Assembly (NCBI RefSeq): GCF_020097835.1
Contig: NZ_CP083667.1
Coordinates: 186,001 to 250,000 of the forward strand
Source of the DNA: Haloprofundus halobius
GTDB taxonomy: Archaea > Halobacteriota > Halobacteria > Halobacteriales > Haloferacaceae
Length of the DNA: 64,000 nt
Reading direction: 5' to 3'
A program made the translations under genes and the position numbers. This document shows positions 23,221 through 37,315 of the stretch, piece after piece (position 1 is the stretch's first letter; every line of letters starts with the position of its first letter). The notes beneath the pieces were generated by a model that did no database searches, was not told the DNA's origin, and was given only the letters and a program-made list of their open reading frames with translations.

Positions 23221-25101
23221 ATGAGAGAGAACTACAAGCGAAGTAAGCAGCAATCGAACGGACGACGCCTCGGCCGACGACAGCTCTTGTACGGACTCGG
23301 CGCGGCGGGAACAGCTACGCTGTTGGCGGGTTGTGGTGGGCAGAGTCCGAGCAACTCCGAGGAAAGTGGCGGGGGCGGTAACGAAAGCGAAAACGAGAGC
23401 GCCGGCGGCGGCAACGAAGCCGGAAGCAACATCGACGCCACCGACGAGGAACTGAAGACCATCCAGGAGCTCGCACACGTCACCAATCAGGAGCTCCCGC
23501 TGCTCCCGGTGATGGAGAAGCTAGCCCAATCGTTCCAGACCACCGACGATTGGAACGTTCCCGAACCGGACTCCGACGAGCAGATGCACTACTGGCCGAC
23601 CGAGTGGCTCGTTCGCTGGGGCGAGTGGACCGCCGACGGCGACGACGACACGCTCACCCTCGCGCAATGGATAAATCCCCAAGACGCCCAGTACAACGAC
23701 TGGAACCCAGAGGGCGGTGCGGAGGTCGATCGAATGGTGTACGACCGGTTCATGAGCTACAACATCGTGGAGGCCGAGTACGACGGCTACGCCATCTCCG
23801 ACTGGGAGTTCGACGGCGACTCCATCTCGCTCACTCTCCGCGACGGATTGGTCTGGCACGACGGCGACGAGGCGACCGGGCAGGACGTCGCGAACCAGAT
23901 CAAACTGGATATGTACACCGGCGGGAGCCTCTCGGACTACGTCGACGACGTCGCCGAGAGCGTGAGTGTCGACGGCAACTCGGTGACGCTACAGTTCAAC
24001 GAGACACTCAACGAGCAGATCATCCTGTCGCTGCTCCAGCCGAAGTACCTGGCGGCGAAGGACAGCATCTTCGGCGAGTACGTGGAACTGTACGACAACG
24101 CGGAGAACGAGGACGAGGAAGCCGCAGCCTACGAGGAGCTCTCCTCGATGACGCTCGAAGAACCGGTCGGAACCGGTCCGTTCTCCTTCGAGGACGCCGA
24201 TTCGCGCCGGGCACTCGCGACGAAGTTCGAAGACCATCCGGACGCCGACCAGGTCGAAGTAGAGAACGTCGAGTATCTGTTCATGCCGGAGAACCAGAAC
24301 CGTTGGACGTCGCTACAGGAGGGCGAGATGGATGGCGACGCGACGCTTTTCATGCCGCAGAATCAGGTCGACCAGCTTCCGGATCACGTACAGATATCGT
24401 TGCTTCCGCGCCACTGGGGAATGGGCCTCATCTTCCAACACGACGACGACCACATGGGGAAGCGCGAGGTTCGACAGGCTATCGCCCACGCGGTCGACCG
24501 CGACGCAGTCGCCCAGTACTCGAGCGCCAACACCGACTCGAAGCTCGGCGTTTCGTACCCCTGTGGGCTGACGGGCGACTTCAGCGGGAAAGTCGAAGAC
24601 GAGTGGCTCGACGGGGTCACCGACCAGTTCAACCAGTACGCCTACGACACCGACAGAGCGGCGGAGCTGCTCGAGGAAGCGGGGTACTCGGAGGACGGCG
24701 ATGGGTGGGTCGACGAGAACGGCAACAGCTTGGAAGTACCGATAAAGGTACCGTCGGGCTTCTCTGACTGGGTCTCGGCAGCCGAGACGATCGTCAGCAA
24801 CCTCAACGACTTCGGAGTCGCGAGCGAGATGATCACGCGGGAGAACGGCGCGTACTTCGGCACCGACCTCCCCGACGGCGACTTCGTCGTCGCCTGCGAA
24901 GGGTGGGCCAGTTACGACCACGTCTACCCGTATTTCCACTTCGACCACATCTACACCGGGGGTTCGACAAGCCTCCAGTCGGTCGCGAACTTCCCCGAGG
25001 AGTACGAAGTTTCGCCGCTTCACGACGATATTCGCGAGGGTGGGACCGTCGACCCGACGGAGCTCATCGACTCGCTGGCGGTTCTCGAAACCGACGAGTA
25101 G
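23221..25101 (+). CDS. ABC transporter substrate-binding lipoprotein, family 5 (Dpp/Opp type)
   Basis: About 626 residues from the ATG at 23221. The Tat-type signal has RR at residues 19-20 (GRRQLLYGLG) and a lipobox LAGC ending at C38, so the protein should be folded before export and lipid-anchored. A Gly/Ser/Asn/Glu-rich linker (about 40-70) leads into an SBP_bac_5 domain to the end, with SWHDGDE-like core text LVWHDGDEATGQDV near residue 215. Family 5 proteins bind peptides, nickel or, in several archaea and Thermotogales, oligosaccharides. Linkage to TrmB and a GH13 glucosidase suggests a sugar ligand here. It is first in a six-gene operon. Confidence 0.92.
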   Translation: MRENYKRSKQQSNGRRLGRRQLLYGLGAAGTATLLAGCGGQSPSNSEESGGGGNESENESAGGGNEAGSNIDATDEELKTIQELAHVTNQELPLLPVMEKLAQSFQTTDDWNVPEPDSDEQMHYWPTEWLVRWGEWTADGDDDTLTLAQWINPQDAQYNDWNPEGGAEVDRMVYDRFMSYNIVEAEYDGYAISDWEFDGDSISLTLRDGLVWHDGDEATGQDVANQIKLDMYTGGSLSDYVDDVAESVSVDGNSVTLQFNETLNEQIILSLLQPKYLAAKDSIFGEYVELYDNAENEDEEAAAYEELSSMTLEEPVGTGPFSFEDADSRRALATKFEDHPDADQVEVENVEYLFMPENQNRWTSLQEGEMDGDATLFMPQNQVDQLPDHVQISLLPRHWGMGLIFQHDDDHMGKREVRQAIAHAVDRDAVAQYSSANTDSKLGVSYPCGLTGDFSGKVEDEWLDGVTDQFNQYAYDTDRAAELLEEAGYSEDGDGWVDENGNSLEVPIKVPSGFSDWVSAAETIVSNLNDFGVASEMITRENGAYFGTDLPDGDFVVACEGWASYDHVYPYFHFDHIYTGGSTSLQSVANFPEEYEVSPLHDDIREGGTVDPTELIDSLAVLETDE

Positions 25102-25141
25102 GCGACGACGTTGGAGACCACTTTCGGACACACGATACTCA

Positions 25142-26152
25142 ATGCACTACATACTCAGACGACTCGTCCAGGCAGCGATTACGGTGCTGTCGACGATCAC
25201 GCTGTCGTTCGTCCTGATCAGGATGATGCCCGGCAGTCCCGTCGACCGGCTTCGGGCGCAACTGCTCGAACGGAACTCGGGACTCTCCTCGGCCCAGATC
25301 CAGTACCGTATCGAACAGCAAACGAACATCGTACCGGACGAACCGCTGTACGTCCAGTACTTCGATTACATGACGAGCATCCTCACCGGCGACTTCGGCC
25401 GGTCGATCGTCAAATCGAATCAACCGGTCGCCGACATCCTCGCCAACGCCATCCCGTGGACGATATTCCTCATGTCGTCGGCGCTGTTTCTGGGGTTCGT
25501 CGTCGGCATCAGCCTCGGAGCGTTCATGGCGTATCGCGAGGGGAGTCTGTTCGACATCTCCTCGACGAGCGTATCGCTCACGCTCAACTCGACGCCGGAC
25601 TACATCGTCGGCTTGCTGCTGTTGACGTTCGTCGCCTACCAGCTCGGACTCTTTCCGACCGGCGGACGATACGCCTCCGGAGTCGATCCGGGGCTGTCGT
25701 TGGAGTTCTTCGCGAGCGTCCTCTACCACGGGGCGCTCCCAATTCTCTCGATGGCGATCGTCGCGTTCGGCGGGTGGGCGCTCGACATGCGCGGAAACAG
25801 CATCCGCATTCTCGGCGAGGACTACTTACACGTCGCTCGTCTCCGCGGACTCCCGGAGCGACGCATCGCGCTGCGCTACGTCGCGAGAAACGCCATTCTT
25901 CCGATGTACACTGGTCTGATGATCGCGATGGGTGCGATGCTCAACGGGTCGGTCATCCTCGAGAGCATCTACGCGTATCCCGGTCTCGGCTTCCGTATCA
26001 TCGAGGCGGTGAACAACCGCGACTACCCCGTTCTGATGGGCTGTTTCATCGTCATCACGTGTGCTATCGTGATCGGCATTCTGATCGCCGATCTCACCTA
26101 CAGCAGAATCGACCCGCGGGCGAAGGGAGGTGACTCTCGTGAAGCGTACTGA
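25142..26152 (+). CDS. ABC transporter permease, DppB/OppB type
   Basis: A 336-residue membrane protein starting MHYILRRLVQAAITVLSTI, the classical DppB N terminus. It has about six membrane helices and a large extracytoplasmic loop after TM1 (residues about 30-95). The cytoplasmic coupling (EAA) loop reads DYLHVARLRGLPERRI. The first ATG after the binding-protein stop was taken; the gap is 40 nt. Together with the DppC-like partner it forms the membrane channel of the importer. The next gene overlaps its end. Confidence 0.95.
   Translation: MHYILRRLVQAAITVLSTITLSFVLIRMMPGSPVDRLRAQLLERNSGLSSAQIQYRIEQQTNIVPDEPLYVQYFDYMTSILTGDFGRSIVKSNQPVADILANAIPWTIFLMSSALFLGFVVGISLGAFMAYREGSLFDISSTSVSLTLNSTPDYIVGLLLLTFVAYQLGLFPTGGRYASGVDPGLSLEFFASVLYHGALPILSMAIVAFGGWALDMRGNSIRILGEDYLHVARLRGLPERRIALRYVARNAILPMYTGLMIAMGAMLNGSVILESIYAYPGLGFRIIEAVNNRDYPVLMGCFIVITCAIVIGILIADLTYSRIDPRAKGGDSREAY
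26126..26133 (+). promoter_or_regulatory. ribosome binding site that decides the DppC start
   Basis: GGAGGTGA, fully complementary to the usual 3' end of archaeal 16S rRNA, ends 5 nt before GTG at 26139. It makes that GTG the likely start rather than the GTG at 26130 that lies inside the site. Confidence 0.6.
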
Positions 26153-27209
26153 CGAGCCACGGACGACCGCTGACGAGCGCCAGACAGACGGCGGGTCCGA
26201 CTTCGAGACGGTTGCCGACGTGCGACTATCGTCCTCCGAGCGATACAGACAGACGGCCGACGAACTTCTCATGACGCCAGCGCGGATCGTCTGGAGCGAC
26301 TGGCGAGCACGGATCGCCGTCTGTGTTCTCGGCTTCTATCTGTTTCTCGGTGTGTTCGGGCCGCTGATCGTGTCGGAACCCAGCCTGGGGGAGGGGCCGG
26401 TGTTGCTCGGCGCGTTCTACTCGCTCGAATTCCCGCTAGGGACGACCTCCCGCGGCGAGGACATCCTCGCGCAGGTCATCTACGCGACAAGACCCATGCT
26501 GCAGATGGTCGCCGCGGGCGCCGTGTTCACGGTCATCGTCGCGACGATCGTCGGAACGACCGCGGGCTACAAAGGCGGCGTCGTCGACAGCGTGTTGATG
26601 ACGCTGACCGACGTCATGCTGACGATTCCGGGCCTCCCGCTCGTCATCGTCCTCGTCACCGTCCTCGAGATCGGGGCGAACCCGTACCTCATCGGGGTGT
26701 TGTTGTCGGTCAACGCGTGGGCAGGACTCGCCAGAGCGCTCCGGTCGCAGGTGCTGACGCTGAGAGACGCCGAGTACGTCGAAGCGTCGAGAATCATGGG
26801 CGTACCGACGCGCGAGATTCTCTCCGTCGACATCATTCCGAACCTCATGCCATACATCACGATGAACTTCGTCAAGCAGGGTCGTGCAGTAATCTTCGGG
26901 TCGGTCGGACTGTACTTCCTCGGTATCTTACCGCAGAACTCCGACACACAGAACTGGGGACTCATGATAGACACCGCCGTGTCGGACGCGGGAGCTGTGA
27001 ACTCTGCGGCGGCGGTTCACTGGCTGCTCGCCCCCATCTTCGCAGTTATCACGTTCGCGATGGGGCTGACGCTGTTCGCGCAGTCCGCCGACCGCCTCTT
27101 CAACCCGCGGGTTCGCGCTCGCCACGCGAAGACGACGAGCGACGACGACGAACCGCCGGAGCGAAACGAGGGAGACGGAACCGCTCCCGCAGGGGTGATG
27201 CAGGGATGA
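26139..27209 (+). CDS. ABC transporter permease, DppC/OppC type
   Basis: About 356 residues from the GTG at 26139 (MKRTDEPRTTADE). It has an N-terminal cytoplasmic stretch of about 50 residues, TM1 (CVLGFYLFLGVFGPLIV), a periplasmic-side segment with LGTTSRGEDIL (typical DppC) and then the six-helix permease domain. The coupling loop is DAEYVEASRIMGVPTREI. The tail is cytoplasmic and charged. It overlaps the DppB gene by 14 bases and the first ATPase gene by 4 bases, so translation is coupled. Confidence 0.95.
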   Translation: MKRTDEPRTTADERQTDGGSDFETVADVRLSSSERYRQTADELLMTPARIVWSDWRARIAVCVLGFYLFLGVFGPLIVSEPSLGEGPVLLGAFYSLEFPLGTTSRGEDILAQVIYATRPMLQMVAAGAVFTVIVATIVGTTAGYKGGVVDSVLMTLTDVMLTIPGLPLVIVLVTVLEIGANPYLIGVLLSVNAWAGLARALRSQVLTLRDAEYVEASRIMGVPTREILSVDIIPNLMPYITMNFVKQGRAVIFGSVGLYFLGILPQNSDTQNWGLMIDTAVSDAGAVNSAAAVHWLLAPIFAVITFAMGLTLFAQSADRLFNPRVRARHAKTTSDDDEPPERNEGDGTAPAGVMQG

Positions 27210-28243
27210 CGGCGTCGAACGGAGGCGACCCTATCCTCGAAGTTCGCGATGCGAGCGTCCAGTTCGAGATGGACCGCGGTACGTCGACGGTACTCAACGC
27301 CGTCGACATCGACGTTGGACGGCGAGAGATTCTCGGTGTCGTCGGCGAATCCGGGTCGGGCAAGTCGATGCTCGCGAACGTGATGCTGGACGCCGTCGAG
27401 GACTCGGGACGGACTACCGGCCAGGTGTGGTATCACCCGAAAGACGGCGAGTCGGTCGACGTGCTCGACCTCTCGTCGTCGGAACTTCAGCGACTCCGCT
27501 GGGAGGAAATCTCGATGGTGTTTCAGGGGGCGCTGAGCTCGTTCAATCCGACGATGGCGATCCGTGGGCATTTCGAGGAGACGCTCGAAGCCCACGGGTA
27601 CGACATGACGGCGGGTATGCGGCGCGCCCGGGAACTGCTCTCGGATCTGTATCTCGACCCCGACCGCGTGCTCGACTCGTACCCCCACGAACTCTCCGGC
27701 GGGATGTCTCAGCGCGCGCTCATCGCGCTGAGTCTCGTCCTCGAACCGAACGTGTTGGTGATGGACGAACCGACCGCGGCGCTGGACCTCTTGATGCAGC
27801 GGTCGATACTGAGTCTGCTCTCCGATCTCAAGGAGAAGTACGAACTTACTGTCGTGTTCATCACGCACGACCTCCCGCTCGTCGCGGGCCTGGCCGACAG
27901 ACTCGCGGTGATATACGCCTTCGAGCTACTCGAAGTCGGCCCCGTCGAGGAACTCGTCCGAACGTCGGCACATCCCTACACCGAGGCGTTGCTACAGGCG
28001 GTTCCGAACCTCAACGCGTCTCTGGAGACGATGCGGCCGATATCCGGCTCTGCACCGGACCCGGTGAACATCCCGAGTGGATGTACGTACGCGCCGCGCT
28101 GTCCGCTAGCAGACGAACAGTGTCGGGCCCAAGAACCGCCATTTCACGACGTGACCGAGAACCACGAGTCGGCCTGTTTCCACTGGGAGGCAGTCGTCGA
28201 GGGGAGCGACTCCGATGCCGTCACGTCGGGGGGTGACCGATGA
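27206..28243 (+). CDS. ABC transporter ATP-binding protein, DppD/OppD type
   Basis: A 345-residue ATPase. Walker A is GESGSGKS, the Q-loop region has MVFQGALSSFNP, the signature is LSGGMSQR, Walker B is LVMDEPTAALD and the switch His is in FITHDL. The C-terminal oligopeptide/dipeptide extension after residue about 270 contains the Cys-rich CTYAPRCPLADEQC segment found in the family. It pairs with the following ATPase to energise import. Start and stop both overlap neighbours by ATGA. Confidence 0.97.
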   Translation: MTASNGGDPILEVRDASVQFEMDRGTSTVLNAVDIDVGRREILGVVGESGSGKSMLANVMLDAVEDSGRTTGQVWYHPKDGESVDVLDLSSSELQRLRWEEISMVFQGALSSFNPTMAIRGHFEETLEAHGYDMTAGMRRARELLSDLYLDPDRVLDSYPHELSGGMSQRALIALSLVLEPNVLVMDEPTAALDLLMQRSILSLLSDLKEKYELTVVFITHDLPLVAGLADRLAVIYAFELLEVGPVEELVRTSAHPYTEALLQAVPNLNASLETMRPISGSAPDPVNIPSGCTYAPRCPLADEQCRAQEPPFHDVTENHESACFHWEAVVEGSDSDAVTSGGDR

Positions 28244-29403
28244 GCGACGACCCCGTCGTCTCGTTGCAGAACGTCGAAGTTCACTTCGAAAAGGAGCAGG
28301 GACTCATCGAGAGTTTCCGGTCTGACCCTGACGTCGTTCGGGCGGTCGACGACGTCTCGCTTGACATCGGGTCCAACGACGTCGTCGCGCTCGTTGGCGA
28401 GTCGGGATGCGGAAAGACGACGCTCGGCAAGACCGCCATCGGCGTCCAGCGCCCGACCGGCGGGAGCGTCAGATACCGCGGGCAGGACGTTTGGGACGCC
28501 AAAAGCGGAGGTGGCGAAATTCCGTTCGCCGAGATCCGTCGGTCGCTGCAGATCATCCACCAGGACCCGGGAGCCGCGATAAACCCCAATCGAACGGTGA
28601 TGAAGAGTCTCACCGCGCCGTTGAAGCGGTGGCAGCCCGAGATGGCGGCCGAAGACAGGCGCGCTCGCGTCCTCCGGATGCTCGAGCGCGTCGGGATGCG
28701 CCCGGCGGACGACTACGCGTACCGATACCCGCACCAACTGAGCGGCGGTGAGCAACAGCGCGTCGCACTCGTGCGTGCGCTGCTGATGAACCCGGACCTG
28801 ATTCTGGCCGACGAGGCGGTGTCGGCGCTCGACGTCTCGCTGCGCGTCGAGACGATGGACCTCCTCTTGGAACTGCAGGACCAGTTCGACACGTCGTTCC
28901 TGTTCATCTCGCACAACCTCTCGAATGCGAGATATCTGGCCGAGAAATCCGGCGGGCGAATCGGCATTATGTATCTCGGTCAGCTGGTCGAGATCGGCCC
29001 CGCCGACGAAGTGCTCGGAAACCCGAAACACCCCTACACGAAGGTGCTCCGCTGGGCGACGGCGGACGTCGACCCCGACGAGGCGATGGACGAAGCGCCG
29101 CCGATTCGAACCATCGACATCCCCGATCCGGTCGACCCGCCGTCGGGCTGTCGGTTCCACACGCGCTGTCCGGTCGGCCGGGAGGTGTGTACCCGACAGA
29201 GCCCGACACTCGAAGACAGCGGCGACGGAATCGAACGAGACTCCGACGGAACCGACGTCGACCGGGGTCACTGCGCGGCGTGTTTCCGGTCGGATCCCGA
29301 CCACGAGTACTGGGAGAGCGAACCGCTCGACGGGACCGACGAAGCGATGCTTGACCGAGCGAACCGGTCGACCAATTTCGCGACCGAATCAGATTCCGAG
29401 TGA
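28240..29403 (+). CDS. ABC transporter ATP-binding protein, DppF/OppF type
   Basis: A 387-residue ATPase. Walker A is GESGCGKTT, the signature is LSGGEQQR, Walker B is LILADEAVSALD and the switch His is in FISHNL. The C-terminal family extension with CRFHTRCPVGREVC ends in an acidic, non-conserved tail of about 60 residues. It overlaps the previous ATPase by ATGA and completes a full importer (binding protein, two permeases, two ATPases). Nine bases after its stop a small coupled ORF begins. Confidence 0.97.
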   Translation: MSDDPVVSLQNVEVHFEKEQGLIESFRSDPDVVRAVDDVSLDIGSNDVVALVGESGCGKTTLGKTAIGVQRPTGGSVRYRGQDVWDAKSGGGEIPFAEIRRSLQIIHQDPGAAINPNRTVMKSLTAPLKRWQPEMAAEDRRARVLRMLERVGMRPADDYAYRYPHQLSGGEQQRVALVRALLMNPDLILADEAVSALDVSLRVETMDLLLELQDQFDTSFLFISHNLSNARYLAEKSGGRIGIMYLGQLVEIGPADEVLGNPKHPYTKVLRWATADVDPDEAMDEAPPIRTIDIPDPVDPPSGCRFHTRCPVGREVCTRQSPTLEDSGDGIERDSDGTDVDRGHCAACFRSDPDHEYWESEPLDGTDEAMLDRANRSTNFATESDSE

Positions 29404-29868: not shown

Positions 29869-29918
29869 TCACTCGAATCTCGGCGACCGGCCGTCCAGAA
29901 ACGCGTCGACGCCCTCCG
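29869..29918 (+). repeat. 50-bp direct repeat, right copy
   Basis: It is the 3' end of the intact enoyl-CoA hydratase gene, matching 19783-19832 with one mismatch (position 5). It marks the right border of the 10-kb transport module. Confidence 0.85.
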
Positions 29919-30636
29919 CGTGCGACTCGGTCGCGTACGCCTGCACCTGGAGGTTCGCCTCGCGGTCGAGGCCGTCGCGGAACGGTCGACCGAGGTTCTC
30001 GTGGAGGCCGTGCTTTATCAGCGCGAGCGTCTCCGTCGGCTTCGACGCGAGCGTGTCGAGCAACTCGGCGACGGCGTCGTCGAGTTCTGCGGACCCGACG
30101 ACGTCGTTGACGAGTTCCATCTCCAGCGCCTCGTCGGCGTCGAACATCCGCCCCGTCATCGCCAACTCCTTCGCCCGTCTGAGACCGACCAACCGCGGCA
30201 AGAGGACGGTCCCACCGCTGTCGGGAACGAGGCCGACGTTGACGAACACCTCGCCGAATCTGGCTCGCTCGGCGGCGACGACGAAGTCACAGGCAGCGGC
30301 GACGTTCGTCCCCGCGCCGACCGCGTCGCCGTTGACCTTCGCGACGACGGGAAACGGGGCCGTGAGAATCGCCTCGACGACGGCGTTGAGCGTCTCCTGG
30401 ACTCGTTCGTACGCCTCCGCGGGCGTCTCGTCGCGGTCGCGCATCGCTTCGAGGTCGCCACCGGCGCTGAACGCCTTGCCCTCGCCGGTGAGGACGGCCG
30501 CCCGCGCGTCGTCGTCCGCCGCCGCTTCGAGCGCCTCGACCAGTTCCCGCGCCGTCGACTCGGTGAACGCGTTTCGCACCTCGGGACGGTCGAACGTGAG
30601 CGTCCACACCCGGTCGTCGACTTCGGTCCGTACCAT
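29869..30636 (-). CDS. enoyl-CoA hydratase/isomerase family protein (PaaG-like)
   Basis: A 255-residue crotonase-fold protein acting on CoA thioesters in the cytoplasm. The oxyanion-hole segments are GEGKAFSAGGDLEAM (residues about 50-65) and a later Gly-rich helix start. The active-site stretch NVGLVPDSGGTVLLPRLVG has Asp where classical hydratases have Glu, as in PaaG (ring-epoxide isomerase) and some enoyl isomerases, and the first catalytic Glu is not obvious. Hydration activity should therefore not be assumed. A TATA-like element at 30658-30667 supports the start. It is divergent from the thiolase/HMGCS-like pair, a CoA-ester neighbourhood. Confidence 0.9.
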   Translation of the reverse strand: MVRTEVDDRVWTLTFDRPEVRNAFTESTARELVEALEAAADDDARAAVLTGEGKAFSAGGDLEAMRDRDETPAEAYERVQETLNAVVEAILTAPFPVVAKVNGDAVGAGTNVAAACDFVVAAERARFGEVFVNVGLVPDSGGTVLLPRLVGLRRAKELAMTGRMFDADEALEMELVNDVVGSAELDDAVAELLDTLASKPTETLALIKHGLHENLGRPFRDGLDREANLQVQAYATESHAEGVDAFLDGRSPRFE

Positions 30637-30755: not shown

Positions 30756-31931
30756 ATGACAGACGCGTACGTCGTCGGAGCCGGACAGTCGCCGTTCGGG
30801 TCGTTTCCCGACGAGAGCTACCGGTCGCTGTTCGCGACGGCGTTCGACCGTGCGACGGCGAGCGTCGACGCGGAACTCGACTCCGGGCGAATCGACGAGG
30901 CGTTCGTCGGCACCCTCGGCGTCGGCGGCCGACAACTCGGGCTGAGCGGACCGGCGGTCACAGAACACGTCGGACTCCACGGCGTCCCGACGACGCGTGT
31001 CGAGAACGCCTGCGCCGCCAGCGGCTACGCGTTCCGCAGCGCCGTCGCGGCGGTCCGCGCCGGACTGGCCGACGTCGCGTTGGCGGGCGGCTACGAGGTG
31101 ATGACCGACACGAGCTCGGACCACACGAAGTGGTGGCTCGGCGTCAGCGGCGAAACGGAGTGGGAGCGCCTCTCGGGAACGACGTTTTCCGGCGTGTACG
31201 CGCAGCTGGCGAGCGCGCACATGACCGAGTACGGGACGACGACCGAAGACCTCTCGCGTGTCGCCGTGAAGAACCACAAAAACGGCGCCCGGAACCCGAA
31301 CGCACACCTCGGCTTCGAGTGCTCGCTCGACGACGCGATGTCGGCACCGACGGTGGCGGACCCGCTGAACCTGTATCACTGCTGTCCGACGACCGACGGG
31401 GCGAGCGCCGTCATCGTCGCGAGCGAGGAGGTGGCCTTCGAACTCAGCGACGACCCGGTTCGAGTCGCCGGCATGGGCGCGTCGAGCGGCCACGTGGGGC
31501 TGTTCCAGCGCGACACGCTCACGAGTATCCCCGCGAGTCGTCGCGCCGCCGACGCCGCCTACGGGGAGGCGGGAATCGGACCGAACGACGTCGACGTCGC
31601 GGAGGTCCACGACTGCTTCGCCATCGCCGAACTCGTCGCGTACGAGGACCTCGGCTTCTGCGACCCCGGGAAGAGCGGCACACTGCTCCGCGAGGGCGTC
31701 ACCGACCCCGACGGTCGACTCCCGGTCAACACCTCCGGCGGACTGAAGTCGAAGGGTCACCCCATCGGCGCGACGGGCACCGGTCAGATCGTCGAACTGT
31801 TCGAGCAACTGCGTGGCGAGGCGCACACGCAGGTCGACGAGCCGCGATACGGCCTCGCGCACAACGTCGGCGGCAGCGGCGGCGGCGCGACGGTCCACCT
31901 GTTCGAGCGGACGAACGGGGGGGAGCGATGA
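30756..31931 (+). CDS. archaeal-type thiolase (acetyl-CoA acetyltransferase family)
   Basis: A 391-residue thiolase. The nucleophilic Cys is C86 in RVENACAASGYAF, the second-domain motif is EVHDCFAIAEL and the base His is H335 in GGLKSKGHPIGATG. Archaeal thiolases of this type condense or cleave acyl-CoA and work in a complex with a DUF35 protein and HMG-CoA synthase. Its stop overlaps the ATG of exactly such a partner, here an HMGCS-like/DUF35 fusion. A TTTTTT-type promoter element lies about 28 nt upstream. The direction (acetoacetyl-CoA synthesis or side-chain degradation) is not clear; the PaaG-like neighbour hints at catabolism. Confidence 0.92.
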   Translation: MTDAYVVGAGQSPFGSFPDESYRSLFATAFDRATASVDAELDSGRIDEAFVGTLGVGGRQLGLSGPAVTEHVGLHGVPTTRVENACAASGYAFRSAVAAVRAGLADVALAGGYEVMTDTSSDHTKWWLGVSGETEWERLSGTTFSGVYAQLASAHMTEYGTTTEDLSRVAVKNHKNGARNPNAHLGFECSLDDAMSAPTVADPLNLYHCCPTTDGASAVIVASEEVAFELSDDPVRVAGMGASSGHVGLFQRDTLTSIPASRRAADAAYGEAGIGPNDVDVAEVHDCFAIAELVAYEDLGFCDPGKSGTLLREGVTDPDGRLPVNTSGGLKSKGHPIGATGTGQIVELFEQLRGEAHTQVDEPRYGLAHNVGGSGGGATVHLFERTNGGER

Positions 31932-33364
31932 ACGCCATCGACGCCGTCGGCGTCGCGCTCCCCCGACTTCGAATTTCGACCGGCGAAATCGCCGACGCGT
32001 GGGGACGCTACTCCGGCGCTGGAATAGCGCAGAAGACCGTCGCCGCGGCGGACGAGGACGCGCTGACGCTCGGTATCGAAGCAGCCGAGTCGGCGTTCGC
32101 TCGCGGCTCAGTCGACCCGAACGGCGTCTCGACTCTCTGCTTCGCAACGACGACGCCGCCGCTCGACACCGAGGAAGTCGTCCCGCGACTCGTTCGCGCG
32201 CTCGGACTCCCGTCGTCGACGATGACGCGGACCTTCACCCAGAGCACGCTCGCGGGGACTGAGGCGCTCGACTCGGGTCTCGACGCCGACGGTCCCGCGC
32301 TCGTCGTCGCCGCCGACCTCCCGCGCGGCGACCCGGCGAGCGTCGACCACCCGTTCGGGGCGGGGGCGGCGGCGTTTCTGCTCGCAGAGACGGGGTCCGT
32401 CGAACGTCTCGGTTCGGCGAATCACGTCGACGAGTTCGCGGGTATCAGCTACCGCGAACGCGGTAGTGACGAACTGACTGGCCTCGACATCACCAGCTAC
32501 GAGCGAAACGCGATTCGCGAGAGTGTGACGAGCGCCGTCGAGCGTCTCGATACGGACGCCGGCGTCGACGAGTTCGAACTCTCCGCCATCGACGGCGCGG
32601 CGGTGTTCCAGCCCGACGCTCGGATGCCCTCGCGTGCGGTAACCGACCTCCCGATACCTCGCGACGCGCTCGCTCGCGGAACGGTCGTCGACCGAATCGG
32701 CGACGCGGGCGCGGCGGGCGTCCCGCTCGGTCTGGCCGCCGCGCTCGACGCCGCGGGCGACGACGACCGAACGCTCGCCGTCTTCGCCGGCAGCGGTGGC
32801 GGGGCGACGGCGATACTGTTCGAGGGCCACGTCGACAGCGACTTCGACGCCGAACTCGACGCTGGGTCCTCGGTCACGTATCCGGAGTACCTCCGCGAGC
32901 GTGGCTACCTCGGCACCGTCGACGTTGCCGGCGGCGGCGCGCACGTCAGCCTCCCGACGTGGCAGCAATCGCTCGACCAGCGCTACAGACTCGCGGCCGG
33001 ACGCTGCCCCGAGTGCGGCGCGCTCACGTTCCCGCCGGAAGGGGCGTGCCGAAGTTGCCACCGCGGCGTCGCGTTCGAGCGGGTCGAACTCTCTCGAACG
33101 GGCGTCGTCCGCGCGGTCACGTCCATCGGCCACGGCGGCGCGCCGCCGGAGTTCGCCGAGCAGCAGCGACGCGACGGCGCCTACGACGTCGCCATCGTCG
33201 AACTCGAACACGAGGGCGAGTCGGCGATGCTCCCGGCGCAACTGACGGACTCGGAGACGGGGACGGTCGAGGTCGGCGACGAGGTTCGCGCAGTCGTCCG
33301 GAAACTCTACGAGCAGGAGGGCGTTCCGCGGTACGGGGCGAAGTTCGCACCCGTCGAACGGTGA
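31928..33364 (+). CDS. HMG-CoA synthase-like protein fused to DUF35 zinc-ribbon/OB domain
   Basis: A 478-residue two-domain protein. Residues about 1-340 are an HMG-CoA-synthase/ketoacyl-synthase-like fold (starts NAIDAVGVALPRLRISTGEI, ends with FAGSGGGATAILFEGHV). Residues about 350-478 are a DUF35 module with a zinc ribbon (C360, C363, C374, C377) followed by an OB-fold. In archaeal HMG-CoA synthase the nucleophilic Cys precedes Lys-Ala-Gly-Thr; here that site reads STLAGT (S106, T107), so the Cys appears absent. The fusion may be a scaffold or substrate-channelling subunit for the thiolase, with which it overlaps by ATGA, rather than a true HMG-CoA synthase. Confidence 0.85.
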   Translation: MNAIDAVGVALPRLRISTGEIADAWGRYSGAGIAQKTVAAADEDALTLGIEAAESAFARGSVDPNGVSTLCFATTTPPLDTEEVVPRLVRALGLPSSTMTRTFTQSTLAGTEALDSGLDADGPALVVAADLPRGDPASVDHPFGAGAAAFLLAETGSVERLGSANHVDEFAGISYRERGSDELTGLDITSYERNAIRESVTSAVERLDTDAGVDEFELSAIDGAAVFQPDARMPSRAVTDLPIPRDALARGTVVDRIGDAGAAGVPLGLAAALDAAGDDDRTLAVFAGSGGGATAILFEGHVDSDFDAELDAGSSVTYPEYLRERGYLGTVDVAGGGAHVSLPTWQQSLDQRYRLAAGRCPECGALTFPPEGACRSCHRGVAFERVELSRTGVVRAVTSIGHGGAPPEFAEQQRRDGAYDVAIVELEHEGESAMLPAQLTDSETGTVEVGDEVRAVVRKLYEQEGVPRYGAKFAPVER

Positions 33365-33473: not shown

Positions 33474-34436
33474 CTACCTCGCGGTCGTGTACATCAGCGG
33501 GACCCCGTCGATCCGGTCGACGCGTCCCGTCGACACCAACGCCGAGAGGTGCGCGGCCGCCTCGCCGGCACCCATCTTCACGTGGATACCGCGCATCTCG
33601 CCGAACAGTCGCGTGGCAACCTGCCACGGGGTGAGCGGACCGTCCGCTTCGAGACAGTCGCGCACCCGCCTCGTTCGCGTTTCGTGGTGAGAGAGAATCT
33701 CGTCGATGCGCGAGGTGAGCGACAGTTCCGAGCCGTGGCCCGGCTGCGCCATCTCCGGGAACTCCGACGCCACCGCGCGCGCTCGAAGCCGAAACAACGT
33801 CTCCCGATACGTCCCCAGCGGGTCGTCGACGCGGGTGTCGCTGCCGCCGACGTTGGGCGTGTACGTCGGCAACACCGCGTCGCCGACGAACAGAGCACCG
33901 TCGCTGCTCCCGTCACCGACCACGGCGAACGCGGCGTGCCCGAGCGTATGTCCCGGCGTGTGAACCACCTCGACGTCCGCAACGGTGTCGCCGTCGACGA
34001 GCGTCTCGACCGGATACGCGTCGGGCATCGGTGAAGGTTCGTCACCCTCGACTACTGCCTCGACGGTCTCCTCCGGAACACCCCACGTCGCCAGCCTCCG
34101 GGCGTCCCGTTGGACGCGCTCTCGCCGGGCGGTCGCGTAGTCGGTGACGAACGCTGCGTCGTCTTCGTGCATGTAGAGGGTCGCGCCGCTCGCCTCGCAG
34201 AGTCGGGGTGCGAGTCCCGCGTGGTCGACGTGCCAATGCGAGACCAGCACCGACGAGACGTCGGCGAGTTCGAGGCCGGCGTCCGAGAGGCCGGCGACGA
34301 GACGTTCCCACGCACCGTCGACCGAGGATCCCGGGTCGACGACGACGCCGCGGTCGGAGAGTAGATACGCGCTGTTCGTCCCCTCGGGACTGCCCTCGCT
34401 CACTTCGATTCGGTGGACTCGGTGGATTCGACTCAC
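33474..34436 (-). CDS. MBL-fold metallo-hydrolase
   Basis: A 320-residue metallo-beta-lactamase-fold protein. The metal motif HWHVDHAG is preceded by NSAYLLSDRGVVVDPGS, and later ligands are in HTPGHTLGH and VGDAVLP. Residues about 230-320 form a C-terminal helical extension (EILSHHETRTRRVRDCLE, then PLTPWQVATRLFG) typical of the MBL-plus-winged-helix hydrolases related to LACTB2. The substrate is unknown; relatives act on thioesters or RNA. It is transcribed alone, convergent with the thiolase operon and divergent from an MFS carrier. Confidence 0.92.
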   Translation of the reverse strand: MSRIHRVHRIEVSEGSPEGTNSAYLLSDRGVVVDPGSSVDGAWERLVAGLSDAGLELADVSSVLVSHWHVDHAGLAPRLCEASGATLYMHEDDAAFVTDYATARRERVQRDARRLATWGVPEETVEAVVEGDEPSPMPDAYPVETLVDGDTVADVEVVHTPGHTLGHAAFAVVGDGSSDGALFVGDAVLPTYTPNVGGSDTRVDDPLGTYRETLFRLRARAVASEFPEMAQPGHGSELSLTSRIDEILSHHETRTRRVRDCLEADGPLTPWQVATRLFGEMRGIHVKMGAGEAAAHLSALVSTGRVDRIDGVPLMYTTAR

Positions 34437-36085: not shown

Positions 36086-37315
36086 ATGAGTTCTACCGAC
36101 CCGCAGGGTCTCCAAGCGTTTCCGGACGAACTCTCCGGCCGCGAGTCCTGGCTCGAACCGTTCGACTGGTACCGCGAGATGCGAGACGACGCGCCCGTCC
36201 GCTACGACGCCTCCCGTGGGTCGTGGGACGCGTTTCGGTACGACGACGTGAAGCGAATCCTCGACGACGACGGGACGTTTTCGGTCGACCCCGAGCGGGC
36301 GACCGACTACGTCGAACCCGAGAACGAGGGCGAGGGGCTGATTCTCCAGACGATGCTGTTCAGGGACCCGCCACGGCACGACGAACTCCGGAGCGTCGTC
36401 GAGGAGCCGTTTCGGCCGAGAGCTATTCGCCAGCTCGAACCGCGTATCCGAGAGTTGACGACCGAGGTTTTAGGCGACGCGCTCGATGCCCGCGGTGAGA
36501 TGGACGTCGTCGAAGACCTCGCCTATCCGCTGCCGGTACTGGTCATCGCCGAACTCCTTGGTGTGCCGGCCGAGATGCGCGACCAGTTCAAGACGTGGTC
36601 CGATACACTCGTCGAGGCGGCCAGCGACGACGTCGACACGCAGGCGTACCTCGAAGACCAGCGGCAGGTCCAGATGGAGATGGCGTGGTACTTCCTCGAC
36701 CTCATCGAGGACCGCCGCGAGAACCCGCGCGACGACCTCGTCTCTCGGATCGTCACGGCGGAACTGGACGACGGGTCGCGTCTCTCTCGCGAGGAGGCAC
36801 TCGGAACGTGCATCCTCCTCCTCGTCGCCGGCAACATCACGACGACGAACCTCATCGCGAACGCCGTCCGCTGTTTCGACGGAGCCGACCACTTCGACAC
36901 CGTACGCGACGACGACCGGGCGCTCGCGGCGGCTCTCGAAGAGGTGCTTCGATACCGCTCTCCCGTCCAGGCGATGACGCGCATCGCCACGGAAGAGGTG
37001 ACGCTCCACGACGCGACCATCGAAGGAGGCGACCGCGTCGTCGTCTGGCTCGGCTCCGGCAACCGGGACGAGCGGCAGTTCGACGACGCGGAGACGTTCG
37101 TTCCGAACCGCACACCGAACCAGCATCTCGGGTTCGGCCACGGCACGCACTACTGTCTCGGGGCGCCGCTGGCACGGCTCGAAACGAAAGTCGTCCTCTC
37201 GGAACTGCTCGACCGAGTCACCGACCTCCGCGTGGCCGACGCCGAGCTATCACCCACGCGCAGTTCGTTCATCTACGGTGTGGAGTCGCTTCCGGTGGCA
37301 TTCGAGACCGAGTAG
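36086..37315 (+). CDS. cytochrome P450
   Basis: A 409-residue soluble P450. The haem ligand is C357 in FGHGTHYCLGAPLAR, the ExxR motif is EEVLRY, and the PERF-like region contains PNRTPNQH. The I-helix oxygen-activating motif, usually A-G-x-D/E-T-T, reads AGNITT (A248 to T253): the acidic residue is Ile251. Loss of this acid impairs normal O2 protonation in model P450s, so this enzyme may use substrate assistance, peroxide or another reaction. No redox partner is adjacent, although a ferredoxin fusion lies 1.5 kb away. It is transcribed alone. Confidence 0.95.
   Translation: MSSTDPQGLQAFPDELSGRESWLEPFDWYREMRDDAPVRYDASRGSWDAFRYDDVKRILDDDGTFSVDPERATDYVEPENEGEGLILQTMLFRDPPRHDELRSVVEEPFRPRAIRQLEPRIRELTTEVLGDALDARGEMDVVEDLAYPLPVLVIAELLGVPAEMRDQFKTWSDTLVEAASDDVDTQAYLEDQRQVQMEMAWYFLDLIEDRRENPRDDLVSRIVTAELDDGSRLSREEALGTCILLLVAGNITTTNLIANAVRCFDGADHFDTVRDDDRALAAALEEVLRYRSPVQAMTRIATEEVTLHDATIEGGDRVVVWLGSGNRDERQFDDAETFVPNRTPNQHLGFGHGTHYCLGAPLARLETKVVLSELLDRVTDLRVADAELSPTRSSFIYGVESLPVAFETE

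Follow-up and report, generated by a model that had tools for sequence, protein, structure and literature searches.

The window considered here is a 64,000-nucleotide stretch of the 3.95 Mb genome of the haloarchaeon Haloprofundus halobius (positions 186001–250000 of contig NZ_CP083667.1, denoted C2, with C1 being a chromosome-like contig of the same genome). It carries a two-gene unit in which an archaeal-type thiolase is followed by a single protein joining a domain that resembles 3-hydroxy-3-methylglutaryl-CoA synthase (HMGCS) to a DUF35 unit (Table 1). The boundaries of the fused open reading frame (ORF) and its overlap with the thiolase gene were re-read as exact in the window sequence, with the ATG of the fusion sitting inside the thiolase stop codon (a 4-nucleotide overlap). 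The N-terminal ~300 residues of the fused protein resemble archaeal HMGCS, and the C-terminal 135 residues form a complete DUF35 unit, with both the four-cysteine zinc ribbon and the OB fold present. NCBIfam model NF003274 (archaeal HMG-CoA synthase) matches this protein with an E-value of 2.1e-38 and 132 bits, which does not reach its cut-off of 244 bits, and the other HMGCS profiles are likewise under their cut-offs (TIGR00748, 84 vs 353 bits; NF041302, 14 vs 800 bits). An AlphaFold2 model built from 40 homologues (mean predicted local distance difference test score, pLDDT, 87.7; predicted template modeling score, pTM, 0.89) has the HMGCS fold, its best PDB match in Foldseek being the HMGCS of Methanothermococcus thermolithotrophicus (6et9_I, TM score 0.85 on the target), followed by PhlA and then by MucABC-type multicomponent acyltransferases. 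The ORF, the Pfam and NCBIfam matches, and the model thus all uphold the fusion of an HMGCS-like domain to DUF35 described in the original prediction, which was made from the letters of the sequence. We rejected a frameshift or gene-call artefact as its source, as the fused length and the ATGA overlap are repeated across many genera.

Table 1. Features of the thiolase/fusion locus, in window coordinates
Feature	Position	Strand	Basis
Archaeal-type thiolase, 391 aa, presumed catalytic subunit; Cys86, HDCF 285-288 and His335 kept	30756..31931	+	PRK06064, 6esq_A match
ATGA overlap of thiolase stop and fusion start	31928..31931	+	Sequence
Fused HMGCS-like + DUF35 (zinc ribbon/OB fold) protein, 478 aa, predicted non-catalytic thiolase partner	31928..33364	+	ORF, profiles, alignment, AlphaFold2 model
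HMGCS-like (thiolase-fold) domain, ~aa 1-316	31928..32875	+	NF003274 aa 4-298; Foldseek 6et9_I
Thr75, column of catalytic Glu82 of M. thermolithotrophicus HMGCS	32150..32152	+	Alignment
Thr107, column of catalytic Cys114 of M. thermolithotrophicus HMGCS	32246..32248	+	Alignment
Phe227, column of active-site His (HQP motif)	32606..32608	+	Alignment
Zinc ribbon (zf-ChsH2), Cys360/363/374/377 invariant	32978..33067	+	Pfam aa 351-380, 3.9e-8
OB-fold domain (OB_ChsH2_C)	33083..33301	+	Pfam aa 386-458, 4.6e-6
Enoyl-CoA hydratase/isomerase, PaaG-like	29869..30636	-	TIGR02280, 220.8 bits
MBL-fold hydrolase	33474..34436	-	In other genera, UbiD-type clusters have this family next to the pair

The key observation concerns the active site of the HMGCS-like domain, which we compared with that of M. 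thermolithotrophicus HMGCS, where Glu82 and Cys114 are catalytic (PMC6392133) and the active-site His lies in an HQP motif. Across 125 distinct fused homologues, the Cys114 column holds Thr in 115, Ala in 5, Pro in 3 and Gln in 2 sequences, and Cys in none, and no Cys lies within 6 columns of it in any of them. The Glu82 column is similarly devoid of Glu (Thr 105, Ser 19, Ala 1), and the His column is variable (Gln 62, His 42, Tyr 9, Phe 5, and others). Separate archaeal-type HMGCS from three other Halobacteria genomes, where the genes stand in the order HMGCS-thiolase-DUF35, served as a positive control and retain all three residues in the same alignment (SES-HP, FACKAGT and FHQP for Glu, Cys and His, respectively). 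The absence of the nucleophile at the true catalytic position therefore stands as originally predicted, although the site had been read as Ser106-Thr107: the residue aligned to Cys114 is Thr107, such that Ser106 is rejected as the catalytic position and the earlier reading was off by at most one residue. We note that Thr107 is at least 90% conserved and that the TTTPP motif around Thr75 is nearly invariant in the family. Mean identity is 75% for the thiolase, 49% for the HMGCS-like domain and 61% for the DUF35 part, and the lower value for the HMGCS-like domain would fit relaxed constraint on a former synthase. Taken at the level of sequence, the reading of the fused chain as a non-catalytic subunit is well supported, and we consider it highly probable that its HMGCS-like domain is a non-catalytic partner in a complex with the thiolase.

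The thiolase, in turn, keeps its own catalytic residues. It passes the curated cut-off of PRK06064/NF004720 (428.7 vs 420 bits), matches the acetoacetyl-CoA thiolase 6esq_A at 3e-85 and PhlC at 1e-32, and retains Cys86 and His335, as had been noted at the outset; both residues, together with the HDCF motif, are invariant in all 138 partner thiolases. By an automatic criterion, 78 of the 80 named loci have the thiolase directly upstream of the fusion in the same orientation, and of 79 named haloarchaeal loci, 62 share the ATGA overlap. The three modules (thiolase, HMGCS-like and DUF35) are thus encoded together, as in the multicomponent complexes of this type.

The thiolase/fusion search gave matches in 182 of the 292 Halobacteria genomes and 59 of the 77 genera. 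At least 6 of these 182 do not carry the fusion, having instead either catalytic HMGCS (genomes G021, G217 and G285) or split or fragmentary copies (G010, G162 and G234). The former three keep an archaeal-type catalytic HMGCS-thiolase-DUF35 operon, while the host of our window has an HMGCS of the haloarchaeal NF041302 type instead. In G010 (C2:1429912-1431266), the HMGCS-like and DUF35 parts are two overlapping ORFs behind the thiolase, without the Cys, and a second HMGCS-like/thiolase/DUF35 set near this split copy also lacks it. One fused homologue (G223:C1:319377-320795) has an in-frame TAG and is possibly a decayed copy. Beyond the Halobacteria, related fusions with 27–29% identity and an adjoining thiolase-like gene are found in Sphingobium, Novosphingobium and Paraburkholderia. 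The original prediction had suggested that the arrangement would be new, but most of the haloarchaeal genera sampled have the pair, and related fusions exist in sphingomonads and Paraburkholderia. In addition, PhlA has already been published as an HMGCS-like subunit that lacks Cys and Glu within a thiolase/DUF35 complex (PMC6392133), and a 2010 paper remarked on DUF35 being fused to thiolase-superfamily domains (PMC2954200). Our literature search, mostly of openly available papers, returned no account of the haloarchaeal fusion or of a haloarchaeal phenylacetate thiolase.

In a quick tree of the family, where some forks are open, clade A comes mainly from UbiD/epoxidase clusters, and the other clade (B) comprises phenylacetate clusters and isolated copies. 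Within clade A, the window copy is the sister of Haladaptatus (support 98). Its closest named relatives in the searches are Haloprofundus species, the fused protein being 81–82% identical to the copies of Haloprofundus salinisoli and Haloprofundus sp. MHR1. The gene neighborhoods largely follow the same division. On plasmids of Haloferax, Halorubrum and Haloarcula, paaK/paaI/maoC flank the pair on one side and paaH/paaF-type genes on the other, and paaABCDE is close by wherever the stretch extends far enough. In Haladaptatus, Halalkalicoccus and one Haloarcula, it is accompanied by a divergent PaaA2/PaaC2 epoxidase, an acyl-CoA dehydrogenase, an aldehyde dehydrogenase, an MBL-fold hydrolase and two UbiD decarboxylases, with a benzoate-CoA-ligase-family gene sometimes present in these plasmid-borne UbiD-type clusters. 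The PaaA2 of the clade-A clusters reaches 139 bits where the cut-off is 280, and no family match was obtained for PaaC2 or for one of the UbiD proteins at the threshold used. Across the 292 genomes, 151 have both the fusion and PaaA/PaaC, 31 the fusion only, 6 PaaA/PaaC only and 104 neither (numbers counted by eye from two lists; Fisher p ~2e-42).

In the host genome, the window copy on C2 is the only thiolase/fusion pair. The phenylacetate locus lies on the other contig (C1:1012998-1027235) and encodes PaaF, PaaH, PaaK, MaoC and PaaABCD without the pair; its PaaH-PaaK gap measures only ~0.4 kb, while other haloarchaea have the thiolase/fusion pair between these two genes. The association with paa genes seen for the family takes the form of co-occurrence rather than adjacency in the host. 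The nearest conventional PaaJ-like thiolase is 49% identical. We also observed a host thiolase paralogue (C1:1644146-1645267) with Ser at the nucleophile column (TSSSGG, not NACAAS) and Met in place of the Cys of HDCF.

The genes immediately flanking the pair in the window are a PaaG-like crotonase and an MBL-fold hydrolase. TIGR02280 is the best match of the former but stays under its 345-bit cut-off, so that the PaaG-like isomerase of the original prediction is a reasonable, if unproven, label. Many clade-A aromatic clusters have a homologue of this crotonase (54–70% identity) in the vicinity of the pair, and the MBL-fold hydrolase is 55% identical to the Haladaptatus salinisoli copy. As both flanking genes have homologues in the clade-A clusters, the window locus resembles a pared-down form of them. 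Farther out, a cytochrome P450 (window 36086-37315, CYP119-like, under the cut-off) lies near the pair in Haloprofundus species and not in the other genera examined, and the thiolase region is directly preceded by a gene for a family-5 solute-binding protein and, after it, genes for ABC permeases and ATPases (window 23221-29403); in Haloprofundus salinisoli and Haloprofundus sp. MHR1, no such transport genes were observed next to the pair.

Taking these data together, the reading we prefer, with a probability of about 0.6, is that of a two-gene thiolase/HMGCS/DUF35 complex which cleaves 3-oxoacyl-CoA from ring degradation, and in which the fused chain is a pseudo-enzyme. The thiolase and the fused protein would form one complex, equivalent to the three-protein archaeal assembly but encoded by two genes, with chemistry occurring only at the thiolase active site (Cys86, His285 and His335), through acyl transfer to Cys86 and CoA-dependent C–C cleavage. 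The HMGCS-like pseudo-enzyme and the DUF35 part would hold the complex together and form part of the CoA/acyl pocket, much as PhlA does in PhlACB. CoA is bound where all three proteins of the Methanothermococcus complex meet (PMC6392133, PMC12329534), which could explain why the HMGCS-like shell was kept although its active site is gone. The likeliest reaction would be thiolysis of a 3-oxoacyl-CoA from ring opening, for example 3-oxoadipyl-CoA or 3-oxo-5,6-didehydrosuberyl-CoA, as in the PaaJ steps (PMC9493321), and we slightly favor such an aromatic-degradation thiolase step as the role of the pair. We infer the physical complex, the inactivity of the HMGCS-like domain, the substrate and the direction of the reaction from the comparisons above. 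Degradation of CoA esters had been one of the options originally put forward, and the aromatic-catabolism gene context favors it over mevalonate synthesis. We doubt the channelling role suggested at the same time, since the complex would lack a second active site as its destination; shaping the pocket and scaffolding the complex would be a better fit. A recent survey calls archaeal phenylacetate pathways incomplete (PMC13186573). A strictly phenylacetate-only role is weakened by the position of the window copy in clade A, outside the phenylacetate clade; the clade-A clusters, with their divergent epoxidase, two UbiD proteins, MBL-fold hydrolase and acyl-CoA dehydrogenase, possibly represent an undescribed aerobic aromatic-acid pathway. 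More tentatively, and with rather lower expectations, one can combine this pathway, to whose clusters the pair and a CoA ligase would also belong, with a dedicated catabolic thiolase/HMGCS/DUF35 machine that lost its HMGCS active site and whose shell was fused to its scaffold and reused as a specificity subunit, similar to a chain-length factor, in the cleavage of ring-opening products.

Several observations weigh against our preferred assignment of a catabolic complex with a pseudo-enzyme subunit. The conserved Thr at the Cys and Glu columns could mean retained binding or some other role. The Fisher value treats the genomes as more independent than their shared ancestry allows and is thereby inflated, and a few of the 182 genomes counted have catalytic HMGCS, split copies or fragments rather than the fusion. 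No ring-attacking gene adjoins the Haloprofundus-type locus except the P450, and the aromatic link consequently rests on orthologues and on the distant paa locus. Furthermore, some 25 of the 80 named loci, mainly from Natrialbaceae, have no match to an aromatic-pathway probe within 6 kb, and the aromatic role is either not universal or not visible there. Finally, many phenylacetate clusters hold a second, conventional thiolase that could be PaaJ in place of the pair.

Alternatively, the pair could be a C-acyltransferase of the PhlACB kind, or serve some other biosynthetic acyl transfer, and thus form C–C bonds instead of breaking them. The three modules and the loss of both Cys and Glu are shared with that system, PhlA and the MucABC-type enzymes follow directly among the structural matches, and the window pair lies near the P450 and an MFS transporter without a complete degradation cluster. 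The thiolase is, however, closer to acetoacetyl-CoA thiolase than to PhlC, and most clade-A and many clade-B loci have catabolic neighbors (β-oxidation enzymes, paa genes and CoA ligases), making this alternative unlikely in our view. We attach similarly little weight to an HMGCS-like domain that is alive with a new, Cys-independent activity, be it decarboxylation of the kind seen in ketosynthase-like domains that carry Gln instead of Cys, or the handling of acyl-CoA via Thr75 and Thr107 (and His in part of the family). While the conservation of Thr107 and of the TTTPP motif, as well as the His still present in 42 of 125 sequences, would be in line with such an activity, all three columns drift (T/A/P/Q; T/S/A; His to Q/Y/F), no Cys lies within 6 columns of the Cys114 column, and the domain diverges faster than the thiolase and DUF35 parts.

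Less probable still is a retro-aldol lyase of the Ltp2/Sal type in place of a thiolase. A DUF35 partner is common to Ltp2-ChsH2 and Sal-Shy (PMC12329534), but these enzymes use Tyr motifs (Tyr302/Cys304 in Sal and paired Tyr in Ltp2), and we reject a steroid-type aldolase on the basis of the invariant HDCF and Cys86. Lastly, despite its overall similarity to the M. thermolithotrophicus complex, a working HMG-CoA synthase with a role in the mevalonate pathway is rejected as highly improbable, given that the catalytic Cys, Glu and His are absent, that the genome has the intact separate gene which the original prediction had proposed to look for, namely a canonical haloarchaeal HMGCS at C1:584335-585663 (NF041302, 878 bits, cut-off 800), and that it also has another thiolase with a stand-alone DUF35 (C1:2517352-2518621).

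Returning to the complex with a non-catalytic fused chain, the database names "3-hydroxy-3-methylglutaryl CoA synthase" and "ACP synthase" are probably functionally wrong for this family, and would mislead the annotation of haloarchaeal mevalonate and lipid metabolism. The family would be a clear case of a condensing enzyme that has become a structural partner and been fused to its own scaffold, and the pair is a testable candidate for the thiolase step in haloarchaeal aromatic catabolism.

Among known systems, the Methanothermococcus thiolase/HMGCS/DUF35 complex (6ET9/6ESQ) shares the three modules and the retained thiolase residues, and provides the best structural match of the HMGCS-like domain; here, in contrast, the HMGCS site is lost, the HMGCS-like and DUF35 parts are one chain, the context is catabolic, and a separate HMGCS is present. 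PhlACB (PpATase, 5M3K/5MG5; CsATase, 9SKH) likewise combines an HMGCS-like subunit without Cys or Glu, a DUF35 subunit, and a thiolase-like subunit that is the only catalyst, as is presumed for the pair. In PhlA, these positions are Gly115 and Cys83, only Cys88 of PhlC is catalytic, and the complete phl operon is needed for a functional enzyme (PMC6392133; PMC12955522), while PhlA had been suggested earlier to be an inactive, length-regulating partner (PMC2954200). PhlACB differs in consisting of three separate proteins, the PhlA- and PhlB-like parts being one chain in our case, in performing a biosynthetic Friedel-Crafts acylation, and in its more distant thiolase. Benzoylsuccinyl-CoA thiolase BbsAB (7PXP) also pairs a thiolase with a DUF35 subunit in aromatic catabolism, but BbsA consists of a stand-alone DUF35 with no HMGCS-like domain attached and belongs to an anaerobic toluene pathway, and the matches to the BbsA and BbsB profiles fall under their curated cut-offs (26.7 vs 250 bits, 4.5e-6, and 210.5 vs 750 bits, 3.4e-62, respectively). 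The steroid aldolases Ltp2-ChsH2 and Sal-Shy resemble the pair in having a thiolase-fold enzyme with a DUF35 partner fused to another domain, yet they perform retro-aldol chemistry with Tyr motifs, and their DUF35 is fused to hydratase domains and not to an HMGCS-like one. PaaJ, the 3-oxoadipyl/3-oxo-5,6-dehydrosuberyl-CoA thiolase, agrees with the pair in the proposed reaction and in gene context, but is a conventional thiolase without a DUF35 or HMGCS-like partner, and many haloarchaeal paa clusters have both kinds.

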